Below, in pieces: positions 11,195-17,859 of a stretch of 32,793 bases of DNA. Within the stretch, counting starts at the first letter, position 1. Each line of letters begins with the position of its first letter. The notes under the pieces were generated by a model, which ran no database searches, was not told the origin of the DNA, and saw only the letters and a program-made list of their open reading frames with translations. Both the position numbers and the translations under genes were made by a program. The DNA is from Promethearchaeota archaeon (lineage in GTDB: Archaea; Asgardarchaeota; Lokiarchaeia; Sigyniarchaeales; Promethearchaeaceae): assembly GCA_004524545.1 (NCBI GenBank), contig SDNX01000019.1, positions 1 through 32,793 of the forward strand, given 5' to 3'.

Positions 11195-11217
11195 TTTCTT
11201 TTTCTATATATATTTTT
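11195..11217 (+). terminator. T-rich tract after porB, probable archaeal terminator
   Basis: Directly after the porB stop is a pyrimidine/T-rich tract (TTTCTTTTTCTATATATATTTTT). Archaeal RNA polymerase terminates on such U-tracts. It overlaps the last codons of the convergent nuclease-like gene. Confidence 0.35.
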
Positions 11218-12055
11218 GCCAAGCAAAGAAATTGATGTTATGTTCTGATAAAATACGATTAATCTCATTTAAGATATCAGGATTAAACTCCCAGATTCTT
11301 TTATTACTGAAGGATGCACATCTAATGTTTTTCAAATTCAGATTTTTTTGCAATAAATATCCGTAAAACGCTACTTGTGGGACGGAGGGCATAAAATTAT
11401 TTTCAGGTTTATAGTCAAGTATGAATAATACATCATCTACAAAACGAAGTAAATCAATATGACCGGTGACTACCTCAGGAGTAATGGGGGGATTTCCCCA
11501 AATAGGAATTTCCATTGCCATTGCATGGGGATCTTTTTCTAAAATCCGAGTTTGGATGTCATTGTGAGATGGTTTTGGTTTTTGTTGGTTCACATGCTCT
11601 GCGAATAAGTGTTTTGCAATTTTCGTCAAGGGGTGGATACTGAGAGTTTCTTGAATGTGACCTTCCCGTATCAAAGATTTTCCAATTTCTGCCACAATTC
11701 CTCGTTTTAAACGATTCAAACGAAATTGAGATATTCGCTGTACAGACCTGTCATTAAAAAATTCCTTTGGATAATGTCCTTGTGCAATAGTGGATAAGTA
11801 TTTATACAAAACTTGTGTTTTTGTGTTTTGACTCAAAGCACTATATCGATGTCTCACCCATTTAAAGGTGTACCCTATGCCTTGATGAACCATCTCTTTT
11901 TCAATTATTTTTTTTTGGGATTCTCCAAAACAATGAATAACTACATCCCAATCGAATCCGTACTGTGTACAAATTTGCATTCGAGTTAGTCCGTTTTCCT
12001 TTGCGTCTAGAATTGTTTGTTTAATTTCTTGTGGAATGGATTCGAACGGATTCAT
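11204..12055 (-). CDS. PD-(D/E)XK nuclease-like protein with N-terminal helix-turn-helix
   Basis: A 283-aa protein. The N-terminal part has a helix-turn-helix-like segment ('GLTRMQICTQYGFDWDVVI') and a basic helical region. The C-terminal part (about 180-270) carries the PD-(D/E)XK signature: 'EIPIWG', 'TGHIDLLRFVDDVLFILDYKPE' region with the Asp and the D-x-K pair, and 'QVAFYGYLL', matching the Q-x3-Y motif of RecB/Cas4-type nucleases. No cysteines arranged as a Cas4 iron-sulphur cluster are visible, and there is no CRISPR array or helicase nearby, so a stand-alone DNA repair or processing nuclease is likely. It is convergent with porB. Confidence 0.72.
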   Translation of the reverse strand: MNPFESIPQEIKQTILDAKENGLTRMQICTQYGFDWDVVIHCFGESQKKIIEKEMVHQGIGYTFKWVRHRYSALSQNTKTQVLYKYLSTIAQGHYPKEFFNDRSVQRISQFRLNRLKRGIVAEIGKSLIREGHIQETLSIHPLTKIAKHLFAEHVNQQKPKPSHNDIQTRILEKDPHAMAMEIPIWGNPPITPEVVTGHIDLLRFVDDVLFILDYKPENNFMPSVPQVAFYGYLLQKNLNLKNIRCASFSNKRIWEFNPDILNEINRILSEHNINFFAWQKYI

Positions 12056-12180: not shown

Positions 12181-12582
12181 TTAAAAACGGGGAAACTGAG
12201 AAGCGATACGTTGAGAAGCGACTCGAAAAATTTTCACAGTTTTCATCATATTTTGTATATTTTGAGCAGCACCAACCAGTACGAATCTTCCAGCGTTAGA
12301 AACAACGATATATCCATTTCCAGCGCGAACGATAACTTCTGATAAATTTTCGTTAAAGACTGTTTTTGTAACCATGTTGGATGTCGATGTCAAGGCGGAA
12401 GCGATTCCACATAATGCATCTGAATCAATCGATCGATTTATCGCTGCATAGGCTATTTGATAGCCTGAGTCTGTAACTAAAGCGATAGCTTCTATATCTG
12501 AATTTGATGTGACGTACGCGATTTCGGGTTCTAAACGGTTAATATCTTCTGGCCCGATTCCAATATCTCCGCCGAATTGCAT
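12181..12582 (-). CDS. Roadblock/LC7 domain protein
   Basis: A 133-aa single-domain roadblock/LC7 protein. The pattern is a first helix ('PEDINRLEPEIAYVTSNSD'), then beta strands 'IEAIALVTDSGYQIAYAA', a helix 'SDALCGIASALTSTSNMV', then 'VIVRAGNGYIVVSNAGRFVLVGAA' and a final helix. Roadblock proteins dimerise and bind or regulate small Ras-like GTPases (MglB in bacteria; LAMTOR and dynein light chain in eukaryotes) and are abundant in Asgard archaea. It lies 159 bases downstream of a same-strand operon encoding an NPRL2-like longin protein, so it may have its own promoter as well as readthrough from that operon. Confidence 0.85.
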   Translation of the reverse strand: MQFGGDIGIGPEDINRLEPEIAYVTSNSDIEAIALVTDSGYQIAYAAINRSIDSDALCGIASALTSTSNMVTKTVFNENLSEVIVRAGNGYIVVSNAGRFVLVGAAQNIQNMMKTVKIFRVASQRIASQFPRF

Positions 12583-12741
12583 TATTTTGTTTCCTTGTTT
12601 TTTTATCTATTACTATAATATGTGTTAAGTTACGTGCTAAAAAAATTATGCTATCTATTATACATACCTCGGTGTGGATCGCTTTCATCACGGAGTTAAG
12701 GGCATAACTCTCAGATCGTCTTGATATCGTCATTGGTACAC

Positions 12742-13011
12742 TTACTCATTTTCGATACAAACTAAAAAACTATTTCCCCTTTCAGTTATGTAATATTCTT
12801 CTTGGGTTTGAAAAATCAGATCAAGGCTCGAAAGAACAGGCAAACGTCCAGTTATGCATTCTGGAGGAACTCCTGATAATAAGCGTATAGAAACTTTGGA
12901 GTTTGCCCCCCGAGAAATTGCGATTAATATTTGAATTCCCATTTCTCCTAAAATATACTTATACTTTACGAAGTCATCATCAGTATCAGGAACACGAGAA
13001 TGCTTTGACAT
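12742..13011 (-). CDS. Small winged-helix protein
   Basis: An 89-aa protein that is essentially one winged-helix domain: helix 1 'ILGEMGIQILIAISRGA', recognition helix 'PPECITGRLPVLSSLDLI', and a wing ending in 'YYITERGNSFLVC', the layout of archaeal transcription-factor-like wHTH modules. An AGGAG sequence overlapping the upstream gene's stop codon supports the start. It is third in an operon with a longin/wHTH protein and an ACT-like protein. It may bind DNA, or act as a protein-protein module as winged helices do in NPRL, ESCRT-II and similar complexes. Confidence 0.7.
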   Translation of the reverse strand: MSKHSRVPDTDDDFVKYKYILGEMGIQILIAISRGANSKVSIRLLSGVPPECITGRLPVLSSLDLIFQTQEEYYITERGNSFLVCIENE

Positions 13012-13020
13012 ATAAAACTC

Positions 13021-13464
13021 CTATTCAATATATTGTACTTGAACTTCCGTGATGCTTTCAACAGAAGCAAAACGTTCTTTGATTAGATCTACGGAAACTT
13101 TCAACTTATTTTTCTCTATATACGATTCATAGATGCAAAAACGCTGCTCTATACACACTCCAGACATGAATAAGTCGTCCGGTAATTTCAATTCCTTGGT
13201 GATCTCTCGAATTTGTTCAATTGTGTTGACGGAGAAATCGGTTAATTTAAGTAGTATTTTAATTACTTCACTGCCTTCTAAAGGAAATATATCAATTTTT
13301 AATGCACGTGGTTTTGGAGAAAATACAATAAGAACATGTGTTAAAGATGGGGATGAAGTCCAAGATTCTTTGAAAAAAGAATCGAACATTTTTTTTGGTA
13401 ATGATATGTTCCCCAACGTGTTTTTCTCAACAACTTTCCCCCAGCTTAATTCCTTTTCCGCCAT
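13021..13464 (-). CDS. Conserved-looking small protein, possible ACT-like fold
   Basis: A 147-aa protein with no family I can name. After a short N-terminal region ('GNISLPKKMFDSFF') comes an alternating strand/helix pattern: strand 'THVLIVFS', strand 'ALKIDIFPL', 'EVIKILLKLTDF', helix 'NTIEQIREITKELKL', strand 'MSGVCIEQRFCIYESYIE', helix 'SVDLIKERFASVE', strand 'ITEVQVQYIE'. This looks like an ACT or ferredoxin-like arrangement that could bind a small ligand such as an amino acid. It starts 1 base after the stop of the longin/wHTH gene and ends 9 bases before the winged-helix gene, so all three are co-transcribed. Confidence 0.55.
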   Translation of the reverse strand: MAEKELSWGKVVEKNTLGNISLPKKMFDSFFKESWTSSPSLTHVLIVFSPKPRALKIDIFPLEGSEVIKILLKLTDFSVNTIEQIREITKELKLPDDLFMSGVCIEQRFCIYESYIEKNKLKVSVDLIKERFASVESITEVQVQYIE

Positions 13465-13465
13465 T

Positions 13466-14746
13466 TTATTCTTCCTTATTTGTACTGCTTTTTTCTTTTG
13501 ATATTTTTTTCAACTTATTAAATACTTCTTCACCAAGATTTTCCAATCCTGAATTTTCTTTAGGTTCGGGCAATTTTGTTTTAATTAAAGTTCGGGTGAC
13601 TTTGTTATTCGTATCGTTTGATACGATATTAGAAATATCAGGTTTTTTCGATTTGAATTTCATTAAATATTCTGGAAAGGAGGTTGTGAATTGGATATCA
13701 TCAATTAGAAGCACTTTCAATTCTCCCTTATAGTTGAATTCGTCGATTATTTTCTGGGTGGTTAGGACATTTAGGATATCCATTAAATTTTTGATAGGTT
13801 CGCTGTCAAGTTTATTGATAATTCGGTCTTTTGTAATTGGACCCGCTCGTAATTGCAATAATACATCATAGATGCCGGGTTTTGCAACGAGTTTAACTAA
13901 TTCTTTTGAATCTTCTGGAGACTCCTTGTAATTATTGAAAAAGTTCCCGACACGTTCCGTAAATTCATCCATAAGTTCCATTAATTCTGGTTTCTCTTGG
14001 ATTAACGTAATTATGCATTCAGGCGGAGTTCTTTGGACTTTTACTATCTTTACAAGTAGAACATAAGTTACGTGTTCAATCTCATTCTGAACTATAAACT
14101 TCTGGTTTTCCAGTTCATATAGGACTTCCTCTAATACCAATTCTGGAAAATGTTGAGTATACCACTTAGCGATTATTTCCTTTTCCACAGGACCACGTGA
14201 TAGGAATCGAATAATCTCATCTACTGATTTTCGACTGAGAAGCTCCGCAGTGATTTCTTCTTCAGTTTTCTCTCGTGAAAATGATACTATATTCCAGTAG
14301 AGATCCCGCAGTAATCCTTTCAATATACTATCATTTTTTACAATATCAGCTTCATCATTTTGTTCTACGGGGAATTCCCCGGATGGAGGACCGTCTAAAT
14401 AAAACGATTTATAGACATTGGGTGTTGATTTTAATGTGTTTGCAAAATCGATGCATTTTACTAGTATTTCATGCTGAATTTGTGTCGTTATTGGATTAGT
14501 GAAACACACTGACATAAGCAGCATCTCTTTATGACCTCGTGCCCATCTAGATGCTACTTCAAAGAAATAATTGAACAGATAGAGGTTTTCAAGTGAATGA
14601 CTGAAGAATCCCTCTTCAAATTTCATGTCCATGAGGTCCGGTATTTTTGTTAATTCATCTGGTGGTAAATTTGATTCGGGGTATTCATAATAGATTGTTG
14701 GGCCAATTTTCCTATGGAACCAGCTTAAAGTAATTGTAATTGTCAT
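13466..14746 (-). CDS. NPRL2-like protein: longin domain plus winged helices
   Basis: A 426-aa protein. The N-terminal about 125 residues resemble a longin domain of the NPRL2/DENN class: 'WFHRKIGPTIYYEYPE' at the start (eukaryotic NPRL2 has a matching F-x4-GP-x-I-x-Y-x-x-P-E pattern) and later 'EMLLMSVCFTNP' followed by a long helix. Two winged-helix-like regions follow (about 165-240 and 300-375; 'VDEIIRFLSRGPVEKEIIA', 'IYDVLLQLRAGPITKDRI'), then a charged, disordered tail. In eukaryotes NPRL2/NPRL3 belong to GATOR1, the GAP complex for Rag GTPases. First gene of an operon with an ACT-like and a winged-helix protein, with a roadblock gene just beyond. Homology is judged by eye. Confidence 0.6.
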   Translation of the reverse strand: MTITITLSWFHRKIGPTIYYEYPESNLPPDELTKIPDLMDMKFEEGFFSHSLENLYLFNYFFEVASRWARGHKEMLLMSVCFTNPITTQIQHEILVKCIDFANTLKSTPNVYKSFYLDGPPSGEFPVEQNDEADIVKNDSILKGLLRDLYWNIVSFSREKTEEEITAELLSRKSVDEIIRFLSRGPVEKEIIAKWYTQHFPELVLEEVLYELENQKFIVQNEIEHVTYVLLVKIVKVQRTPPECIITLIQEKPELMELMDEFTERVGNFFNNYKESPEDSKELVKLVAKPGIYDVLLQLRAGPITKDRIINKLDSEPIKNLMDILNVLTTQKIIDEFNYKGELKVLLIDDIQFTTSFPEYLMKFKSKKPDISNIVSNDTNNKVTRTLIKTKLPEPKENSGLENLGEEVFNKLKKISKEKSSTNKEE

Positions 14747-14903: not shown

Positions 14904-15632
14904 ATGATTCACCTAATTGGATTTGATTTGGATGATACCTTGTTTAATGCAAGTGAGTTAGCTACTCAAGCCCGAATCGGAGGGTTAAAAAAAATCCAAG
15001 AATGCGGACTAAATTTCTCATTACAAGAGGGAATCAATGGATTATTTGATATAGTAAAGGAATTTGGTAGTAATTATACACACCATTATGATACATTATT
15101 GGAAAGAATGAAAAAAGACCCTGTGAAATATGAAATTACCATACCTGATTTTAAAATTCCAAAATATGTTGCTGCAGGAATCATGGGATATCATGAAGTA
15201 AAGGTAAAAAATATTAAACCATTTGAAGATGTGCTGGGTTGCCTAGTTACCCTTAAAAAAATTGGATATCCAATGATTTTGATCAGTGATGGACGACCAA
15301 TTAAGCAATATGAAAAATTACATCGACTGAAGATAGAGCAATTTTTTACTGATATATTCATTTCCGAAGAAATAGGTTTACAAAAACCAAATCCCGAGTA
15401 TTTTAAATATTGCTTAAATGAAATGGATGTTCTACCAAGTGAATTTATGTATGTAGGAGACCGTATGGATCACGATATTAAACCCGCAAAGGATATAGGA
15501 ATAAATACTGTGCTAATTCATCGAAAGGGAAAATATGATCCAATTATAAGTGGAAAATCGTATCCTTACCAAGCGGATTACGAAATTTCCTCTCTCGAGG
15601 ATTTATTACCTATTGTGAAATCTATCTCTTAG
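14904..15632 (+). CDS. HAD-superfamily hydrolase, subfamily IA
   Basis: A 242-aa haloacid-dehalogenase-type phosphatase. Motif I 'GFDLDDTLF' holds the nucleophile Asp and the acid/base Asp, motif II is 'LISDG', motif III Lys is in 'GLQKPNP', and motif IV is 'YVGDRMDHDIKPAKDIG'. A helical cap lies between motif I and II (about 15-95). The length and the motif II/III spacing fit the archaeal subfamily IA group related to phosphoglycolate or pyrimidine-nucleotide phosphatases. The substrate is unknown. It is divergent from the NPRL2-like operon across 157 bases. Confidence 0.85.
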   Translation: MIHLIGFDLDDTLFNASELATQARIGGLKKIQECGLNFSLQEGINGLFDIVKEFGSNYTHHYDTLLERMKKDPVKYEITIPDFKIPKYVAAGIMGYHEVKVKNIKPFEDVLGCLVTLKKIGYPMILISDGRPIKQYEKLHRLKIEQFFTDIFISEEIGLQKPNPEYFKYCLNEMDVLPSEFMYVGDRMDHDIKPAKDIGINTVLIHRKGKYDPIISGKSYPYQADYEISSLEDLLPIVKSIS

Positions 15633-15703
15633 ATTCCTAGATTTTATAGAAGAAGTTTTCTAATTTTACAATATATTTAGATAAAATTCGAGTAGTGAAA
15701 ATT

Positions 15704-15997
15704 ATGGGAAAACCAAAATCATCAGGCGGTAAAATGCGTGCAAAGCACATTTTAGTTCCAAAACATGGACAACTTCTCAAGATAATGGAAAAATTAAATG
15801 CTGGACAAAAGTTTGAAGATCTAGCTCGAGAGTTTTCCGAATGTCCCTCAAAAAATAAGGGGGGAGATTTGGGATTTTTTGAACGGGGAAAAATGGTGCC
15901 AGAGTTTGAACGAGCAGTTCTTTCTTTAAAAATAGGAGATATTTCCGAACCAGTAAAGACTCAATTTGGATGGCATTTAATAAAAAGGACTGGGTAG
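15704..15997 (+). CDS. Parvulin-type peptidyl-prolyl isomerase
   Basis: A compact PpiC/parvulin domain of 97 aa from the ATG at 15704; a GTG at 15695 would add three residues. Diagnostic segments are 'AKHILV', 'FEDLAREFSECPSKNKGGDLGFF', 'MVPEFERAVLSLKIGDIS' and 'FGWHLIKR'. It catalyses cis-trans isomerisation of X-Pro bonds in folding proteins. With no signal peptide it is probably cytosolic, like other short archaeal parvulins. It is followed after 9 bases by a nitrilase-family gene. Confidence 0.9.
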   Translation: MGKPKSSGGKMRAKHILVPKHGQLLKIMEKLNAGQKFEDLAREFSECPSKNKGGDLGFFERGKMVPEFERAVLSLKIGDISEPVKTQFGWHLIKRTG

Positions 15998-16006
15998 GTA
16001 TTATTT

Positions 16007-16831
16007 TTGCCAAAATCCATTAAAATTTCTTTAATTCAATGTGATATCCAACCGCTTCAAGATGAAATGGATACAAATATTGCTAATTTAGTGGGAGAGG
16101 CGTTAAAAGAAAATCCAGATCTATTATTGCTTCCGGAAAGGTGGAGAAATGTACCCCCTAAAGAACAATTTTTAAACGCGATTGAAAAGGAACGTGGACA
16201 TTCATATCACCTTCTACAAAATTTAGCTAAAAATAATGATGTACACATAATAACGGGGGGAATTTGGGAAGAACGTGAGAATAGCAAATATTATATCACC
16301 AGTTACGTTTTTGATAATAAAGGAAATGAACTTGGTAGACAAGATAAACTCCACTTATATAGTTATGAACCGAAAATATTTACTCCGGGAGAATATCTTC
16401 AAATTTTTTCACATGAACCAACACACACCAAGTTTGCAGTGTTGATTTGTTTCGATATCGCATTTTTTGAGACCCCACGGTTAGCAATTGAGCATGGTGC
16501 AGAGCTTCTACTTAGTCCGACTTTAATACGAGCGGATGGAATGTACAATTGGAAAATTTATTTGCAAGCACGAGCCTTAGAAAATCGGGTTCCGGTTGTA
16601 GCATGTAATCCAGTGGGATCGATTTTTGGAAACACCTACACAGGTAAATCAAAAATAATATCGTTTAAGCGGGGTCATACTTCTCCTTCAGTATTAAAAA
16701 TTAAAGAAGGTTTAGAATCCAGAAGAGATATAATTACTGAGAGAATAAATCTTTCGTTTCCCAATTTAATTCGCAAAAGACGATTAAGTGAGAAACGAGA
16801 ACAATCATCTATCAAAGTGGTAAAAAGTTAA
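16007..16831 (+). CDS. Carbon-nitrogen hydrolase (nitrilase superfamily)
   Basis: A 274-aa nitrilase-superfamily amidohydrolase with the Glu-Lys-Cys triad visible: Glu in 'LLLLPERW', Lys in 'GRQDKLHLYS' and Cys in 'VLICFDIAF'. The segment 'RALENRVPVVACNPVG' near the C-terminus is also typical. It begins with TTG at 16007, directly after the parvulin gene with a GGTAGGT stretch as a possible ribosome binding site, so the two are probably one transcript. The family cleaves C-N bonds of small amides such as omega-amides or carbamoyl compounds; the exact substrate cannot be read. Confidence 0.85.
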   Translation: MPKSIKISLIQCDIQPLQDEMDTNIANLVGEALKENPDLLLLPERWRNVPPKEQFLNAIEKERGHSYHLLQNLAKNNDVHIITGGIWEERENSKYYITSYVFDNKGNELGRQDKLHLYSYEPKIFTPGEYLQIFSHEPTHTKFAVLICFDIAFFETPRLAIEHGAELLLSPTLIRADGMYNWKIYLQARALENRVPVVACNPVGSIFGNTYTGKSKIISFKRGHTSPSVLKIKEGLESRRDIITERINLSFPNLIRKRRLSEKREQSSIKVVKS

Positions 16832-16894: not shown

Positions 16895-17344
16895 ATGACA
16901 GAATTAACATTACGTATTGAGAAAATCAAAAGTGGAACTGTAATTGATCACATTGAACCAGGAAAAGCAATTCGAGTACTAAATATTTTGGGTTTAGAAG
17001 GACAGGATGGTAGGTTGATTACTGTAGCTATTAATGTGCAATCCAAGAAGTTAGGTGGAAAAAAAGACATCATTAAGGTCGAAAATGTATTTCTCGATAA
17101 TGAACAATTGAATCAAATTTCTTTGCTATCACCAAAATGTTCTATTTCTTACATAGAGAATTTTGAAGTCTCTAAGAAATTCATATTGAATCTACCTGAA
17201 ACTTTTATTGGGCTGTTTCCTTGCTTGAACGAGAATTGCATATCCAATGTTGCGGCAGAACCGATGAAGTCCGAGTTTCAAGTGATTTCAGAAAAACCCG
17301 TAAAATTAAGATGTGTATATTGCAGTCGAATAAATCGATTCTAA
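16895..17344 (+). CDS. pyrI: Aspartate carbamoyltransferase regulatory subunit
   Basis: A 149-aa PyrI. The N-terminal allosteric nucleotide-binding domain begins 'LRIEKIKSGTVIDHIEPGKA', typical for the family. The C-terminal domain has the zinc site as 'CLNENC' and 'CVYC', which contacts the catalytic PyrB chains. In the holoenzyme it transmits feedback control by nucleotides to the first committed step of pyrimidine synthesis. No pyrB is found in this window, whereas many archaea have pyrBI side by side. The 3' end overlaps the convergent longin-like gene by 4 bases. Confidence 0.92.
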   Translation: MTELTLRIEKIKSGTVIDHIEPGKAIRVLNILGLEGQDGRLITVAINVQSKKLGGKKDIIKVENVFLDNEQLNQISLLSPKCSISYIENFEVSKKFILNLPETFIGLFPCLNENCISNVAAEPMKSEFQVISEKPVKLRCVYCSRINRF

Positions 17345-17859
17345 ATTTTATAAATTTCTAATGCGTTTGTAATTGGACGATTTGCAAATATTTTCTTAAT
17401 GAACCCAATTTTATGTCTCCCATTTTGGATAATTGCATCAAAATCTTCCTCAATGTCCATAAACAATGATTTATAGTTGAGACTGTTTTCTTGACGAATT
17501 CTCAATTGAAGAAGTAGCGTTCCTACTTTTCGTTCAATTAAGCCAAGTTGAGCTTTGCAAGCGTTTTCTAACCGTTTATTAAATAGAGAAATACGATCAT
17601 TTTCTCCATCATTGGGATTTTCTGGTTGAAATCGTGCTATTATTAGAGCAATGTAAATATCTTGAACGGTCTTGATTAACAAAATGTTATTTTTTGCCTT
17701 GATACTATCCAAGGCTCCAAATTTAGAATCCAGATATCCAAATAAGACTGTTAAAAACCCAGTAGTCAACTCATCGTCATCACACAATGTCGATTTTTCG
17801 TAATCTTTCGAAAATAAACATATTCCCGATCTCTCAAAGATCAAAAGTTTTTGAATCAA
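17341..17859 (-). CDS. Longin-like small protein
   Basis: A 172-aa protein whose first about 110 residues have the longin/roadblock-type profile strand 'IQKLLIFERSGICLFSKDY', helix 'ELTTGFLTVLFGYLDSKFGA', strands 'NILLIKTVQDIYIALIIARF', then a long helix 'ISLFNKRLENACKAQLGLIE'. Eukaryotic longin proteins act in vesicle traffic and GTPase regulation; stand-alone longin proteins are known to be numerous in Asgard archaea. There is no transmembrane segment. It is monocistronic between convergent pyrI and the divergent Cys-rich gene. The family call is from the pattern only. Confidence 0.6.
   Translation of the reverse strand: MIQKLLIFERSGICLFSKDYEKSTLCDDDELTTGFLTVLFGYLDSKFGALDSIKAKNNILLIKTVQDIYIALIIARFQPENPNDGENDRISLFNKRLENACKAQLGLIERKVGTLLLQLRIRQENSLNYKSLFMDIEEDFDAIIQNGRHKIGFIKKIFANRPITNALEIYKI

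Follow-up and report, generated by a model that had tools for sequence, protein, structure and literature searches.

An NPRL2-like longin and winged-helix protein with an invariant arginine in Lokiarchaea, linked to a Rag-type GTPase gene in relatives

Gene organization of the locus

The window, that is, the whole stretch of 32,793 nucleotides analysed here, is contig C60 of a Lokiarchaeal MAG (2.55 Mb, 76% complete). The genes and domains of interest are listed below.

13466–14746, minus strand: NPRL2-like protein (NPR), 426 aa, with a longin domain, a helix and two winged helices (AlphaFold, Foldseek, orthologs across the order)
14417–14746, minus strand: longin domain of NPR, residues 1–110 (secondary structure of the model)
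14537–14539, minus strand: codon of Arg70, which lies in the loop joining strands 4 and 5 (motif SRWARG) and is proposed as an arginine finger (invariance in orthologs)
14027–14263, minus strand: winged helix 1 of NPR, residues 162–240 (model; ArsR-type matches)
13679–13918, minus strand: winged helix 2 of NPR, residues 277–356 (model; ArsR-type matches)
13021–13464, minus strand: ACT-like protein, 147 aa (model and Foldseek; adjoins NPR in families f1, f2 and f4)
12742–13011, minus strand: small winged-helix (WH) protein, 89 aa (HTH_45; neighbour of NPR in relatives)
12181–12582, minus strand: roadblock/LC7 protein, 133 aa, weakly associated (PF03259)
14904–15632, plus strand: HAD hydrolase (TIGR02253), divergent neighbour (181.9 bits, cut-off 169.75)
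15695–15997, plus strand: parvulin-type peptidyl-prolyl isomerase, divergent neighbour in family f1 only (Rotamase match)
16007–16831, plus strand: carbon-nitrogen hydrolase of the nitrilase superfamily, divergent neighbour (CN_hydrolase match)

The NPR, ACT-like, WH and roadblock genes all lie on the minus strand with gaps of 1, 9 and 159 bases, as the sequence-only reading had described. The roadblock gene product matched Roadblock/LC7 (PF03259, 27.3 bits, cut-off 23). The 89-aa WH protein fell below the HTH_45 cut-off in the window (E 2e-4), and its same-genus ortholog passed it (27.6 vs 25.5 bits). Neither NPR nor the ACT-like protein received a name from Pfam or NCBIfam. Almost every genome of the order encoded a full-length relative of NPR, so that it is not a chance ORF. 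Two further proteins of the window gave weak matches: a 172-aa protein beside PyrI (17341–17859) to Sybindin, a TRAPP-type longin (E 0.068), and a 283-aa protein (11204–12055), also conserved close to NPR in some of family f3, to a PD-(D/E)XK nuclease below threshold.

Predicted folds and structural matches

The N-terminus of NPR reads MTITITLSWFHRKIGPTIYYEYPE. An AlphaFold model of the protein (pLDDT 83.2, pTM 0.71) was built from a 34-sequence alignment of proteins taken from the fetched genomes. It showed a longin topology followed by a long helix and the winged helices at residues 162–240 and 277–356; the longin domain, which had been proposed from the letters and is present in the model, consisted of strands 3–11, 15–22, 46–52, 55–65 and 73–82 and a helix at 88–107. 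In a Foldseek search of the PDB, ranks 1 to 6 went to GATOR1/SEAC chains, with E 4e-5 to 4e-4 and prob 1.00. As Foldseek itself gives no chain names, these were assigned to NPRL2/Npr2 by means of the entry lists and of their lengths, which fit that protein. FLCN, NPRL3 and Lst4 came next, and the Loki roadblock–longin structure 8yqg ranked just 19th. Alignments with several NPRL2 chains covered 337–422 columns, beyond the longin domain, at an rmsd of 15–22 Å, so they do not represent one rigid superposition. The whole-chain TM-scores were low (0.25–0.33) because the domain arrangement differs. Model and ranking agree on an NPRL2-like architecture of longin domain and winged helices.

NPRL2/Npr2, the catalytic subunit of GATOR1/SEACIT, is the best structural match of NPR and shares its N-terminal longin domain, a winged-helix C-terminal lobe and an arginine ahead of the last longin strand; the sequence similarity is marginal. 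With hhalign, NPR matched NPRL2 at E 0.0035, 3.8 standard deviations over shuffled sequences, yet the best shuffle nearly equalled it in score, and the score against FLCN lay within the shuffle null. Pfam NPR2 (PF06218) matched neither the protein nor the genome, where the control of the genome search likewise gave no match, and the Folliculin Pfam model matched weakly in two of 34 members (E 0.07). A profile search of PDB sequences with NPR returned solely ArsR-type winged helices. The human query sequences were checked against PDB entries, with a full match for FLCN and all but residue 301 for NPRL2; this residue was corrected in the hhalign and shuffle comparison only. We regard the resemblance as marginal and do not claim homology from sequence alone. 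The earlier suggestion that the gene set could be "ancestral" found no backing: the NPRL2 similarity is marginal in sequence, with no tree that unites the families.

The ACT-like fold proposed for the 147-aa protein was borne out by its predicted model, an alpha/beta structure with an ACT-like half (pLDDT 85.6), in which residues 67–146 follow the beta-alpha-beta-beta-alpha-beta order of an ACT domain. Foldseek matched it to ACT, NikR and other ferredoxin-like domains, with E-values for ACT and NikR of 1.5e-3 to 1e-2 and none below 1e-3. These NikR matches, together with the resemblance of both NPR winged helices to the ArsR/SmtB type, would fit a transcription regulator in which the winged helices and the separate WH protein bind DNA, with the longin and ACT domains as sensors. 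Such a regulator is improbable, however: the net charge of the recognition helices averages -1.1 and -0.1, which is neutral to acidic (charge being a crude test), and the order of longin domain and then winged helices is that of NPRL2.

An invariant arginine at the finger position

Arg70, in the motif SxWARG, was found in all 78 orthologs of the deep alignment and in 80 of 80 named loci. All six arginine codons are used for it among the 78 orthologs, indicating that its invariance is maintained at the protein level. It is one of 23 fully invariant columns of that alignment. No other arginine in the longin domain is invariant; in winged helix 2, R300 is. In the model Arg70 is located between strands 4 and 5. 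Arg70, FLCN Arg164 and NPRL2 Arg78 occur in the same order and spacing, a match made by topology and not by superposed coordinates. Human NPRL2 R78 lies in YSRN, immediately ahead of the LLFNLGF strand. FLCN R164, a known arginine finger, lies within SLARGFQRWYS; its SLARGF resembles SxWARG, and the FLCN N-terminus IVALCHFCELHGP resembles VALSYFHRKIGP of NPR. The longin GAPs FLCN and SMCR8 differ from NPR in carrying a DENN module in place of the two winged helices. Catalytic arginines are described at Arg78 of NPRL2 and Arg84 of yeast Npr2 (PMC9646525), and the catalytic arginine of NPRL2/Npr2 appears in the title of Shen 2019, as cited in PMC8213707; in the ARF1 complex, Arg147 of SMCR8 is directed at the nucleotide (PMC8213707).

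The arginine is also retained in other longin proteins of the examined genomes (L003, L059, L071–L073 and L076). In contrast, a second Asgard longin and winged-helix family (L060–L065) has kept the fold without the finger loop and provides an internal contrast for reading Arg70 as a finger. Finger-less longin and winged-helix paralogs (L004 and L007) are encoded in the window's own genome. Separately, in one protein (L072:4775–5935, G124) the arginine-finger longin domain is followed by receiver-like and zinc-ribbon-like sequence, as judged by eye.

Arg70 could instead be kept for folding or binding in a longin platform whose role towards a bound small GTPase is that of scaffold, effector or GEF and not that of GAP. 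Longin and roadblock proteins are mostly platforms or GEFs (PMC10933270), and G15, P16, F48, N59, E63 and S66 of the longin domain are no less invariant than Arg70. We nevertheless consider this unlikely, since Arg70 occupies a loop, in the place where NPRL2 and FLCN have their fingers, and paralogs of the same fold have lost this loop.

Conservation of neighbouring genes

The conserved gene order expected from the window alone was found in part: NPR–WH and NPR–ACT pairs are kept in relatives, and the four genes are not a single fixed operon. NPR, ACT-like and WH genes are contiguous in G000, G086 and G085, and NPR and ACT-like genes additionally in G092, G161, G162 and G158. The most frequent pair is NPR with the winged-helix gene, contiguous in most of family f3; across 74 named loci, the 89-aa WH gene lies within 6 kb of NPR in 56, mostly directly downstream. 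The divergent HAD and nitrilase genes were close to universal, present in 63 and 57 of these loci, and the L15e-region genes next to the locus are conserved too. The ACT-like protein family is widespread and in f3 is encoded several genes away from NPR.

The roadblock gene, which the sequence-only reading had included in the set, proved adjacent only in G000 and G086, both of the window's genus, and the window's genome encodes 13 roadblock domains. It was dropped as a part of the module, its neighbourhood being unconserved. The roadblock proteins of G000 and G086 are 98% identical whereas their four-fold sites are merely 40% identical, which indicates very strong purifying selection on the protein.

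The 159-base gap between the WH and roadblock genes is well conserved between the window and its closest relative, G086, despite saturated synonymous sites. The G086 copy (L037:7399–7557; window 12669–12733, minus strand) reads ATGATGA, 12 nt, CTGA, 15 nt, ATGATGA, 12 nt, CTGA. In this layout it matches an archaeal C/D box sRNA and is a candidate for one. Rfam gave no match for this candidate. No rRNA genes were found in the window's MAG.

A Rag-type GTPase gene beside NPR in relatives

Neighbourhood clustering located a GTPase of 316–328 aa past the divergent HAD and nitrilase genes in relatives. The gene order is RAG-NIT-HAD-NPR, with the GTPase gene next after the nitrilase gene. Its best Pfam match was Gtr1_RagA (86–94 bits, cut-off 22), with Arf second; it is about the size of RagA and carries a catalytic-type WDLGGQ. 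The best PDB matches were two chains named GTP-binding protein (8yl2 and 8zla), followed by Gtr1.

Of 29 genomes that have a close ortholog of this GTPase, 26, from four families, carry it divergently less than 3 kb from NPR, as counted by hand from coordinates. These 29 genomes comprise those with an ortholog at E < 1e-75 or, for G085, a masked stretch, after removal of G121 and G155 (no NPR ortholog). In two of the remaining three, GTPase and NPR lie on separate contigs, and in G157 they are 424 kb apart. The GTPase is present as well in the sister genus genome G092 (L161). Next to NPR it is missing from the window's genus, from Harpocratesius and from most g13 genomes. It therefore cannot be an obligate partner, and it was not visible from the window alone. 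The suspected association with a Rag-type GTPase thus holds in relatives and fails beside NPR in the genus in which it was first suspected.

Genomes of the order hold 29–74 Rag-like candidates each, mostly 40–60, of which the best 12 per genome were scored; with so many, a chance neighbour in a single genome is not rare. The same GTPase ortholog at the same position in four families is informative. The linkage may partly be retained synteny. The whole cluster might even be synteny of no functional meaning, with its proteins in separate pathways: the neighbouring HAD, nitrilase and L15e-region genes are conserved as well, the roadblock gene moves freely, and the Rag-type gene has been lost in several lineages. 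We consider this rather unlikely, because family f4 has kept the GTPase beside NPR though other neighbours were lost or moved. With the intervening genes rearranged, the GTPase gene is the direct divergent neighbour of NPR in three of four f4 genomes, at 159–311 bp (G161, G162 and G158).

For MK-D1, one study reports that GTPase genes do not as a rule share an operon with those of roadblock, longin or TRAPPC3 proteins (PMC10933270); our GTPase is of the same kind as the Asgard Rag-like GTPases described there with roadblock and longin proteins, but here the divergent NPR–GTPase pair is conserved across families. In other Asgard families (L242, L243, L258 and L259; G052, G044 and G055), pairs of Rag-type GTPases adjoin longin-like proteins that have a GP motif and no WARG loop.

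Discussion

We propose that NPR probably serves Rag-like GTPases as a longin GAP subunit with an arginine finger. Its longin domain, probably dimerized with that of another longin protein, would dock onto the GTPase, and Arg70 would reach into the active site as the finger. The winged-helix pair probably forms a lobe for docking proteins, comparable to the C-lobe of Npr2/Npr3. The co-transcribed ACT-like and WH proteins are plausible ligand-sensing or regulatory partners, and there may be a nutrient input. Compared with NPRL2/Npr2, the host of NPR has no lysosome and the NPR gene is linked to ACT-like and WH genes.

NPRL2, the catalytic part of human GATOR1, which senses amino acids, forms an obligate dimer with NPRL3, a finger-less longin partner. 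Two tandem longin proteins (L059:2260–3945 in G081 and L073:5246–6256 in G082) join a finger-less longin to an arginine-finger longin, and these fusions point to a pair of finger and finger-less longins. The L059 fusion continues into winged-helix-like sequence, and the finger-less half of both has relatives among the longins whose genes adjoin Rag genes in further Asgard families (hhalign 81%). A forerunner of GATOR1 in Lokiarchaea, in which an NPRL2-like finger longin and a finger-less NPRL3-like paralog would form a GAP on a Rag-type GTPase with the ACT-like protein feeding in a metabolite signal, is a tentative idea that we hold with more doubt than belief.

An "NPRL2-like longin domain" is already known as an Asgard category of eukaryotic signature proteins (asCOG), listed for Ca. 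L. ossiferum (PMC9834061), and probably includes the NPR family. That paper was found to give the category only, and no arginine conservation, full architecture or Rag linkage was found in it. Literature on Asgard together with NPRL2, GATOR, Rag, folliculin or longin, searched in a collection outside which most subscription journals lie, was found to describe neither the arginine nor the complete architecture nor the link to Rag; within this literature, the invariance of Arg70, the architecture and the linkage are new. We consider the finding real and the mechanism a well-motivated inference, and the core idea of the sequence-only reading was strengthened by the relatives.

In eukaryotic cells, Rag GTPases and their GAPs signal amino-acid availability, and this switch in nutrient signalling may have existed before eukaryotes did. 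If an archaeal protein of NPRL2-like architecture, with the same catalytic arginine, does regulate a Rag-type GTPase, the core of the switch would be older than lysosomes and TORC1. What its input and output were at first could then be tested with Lokiarchaeal proteins, which E. coli can produce.
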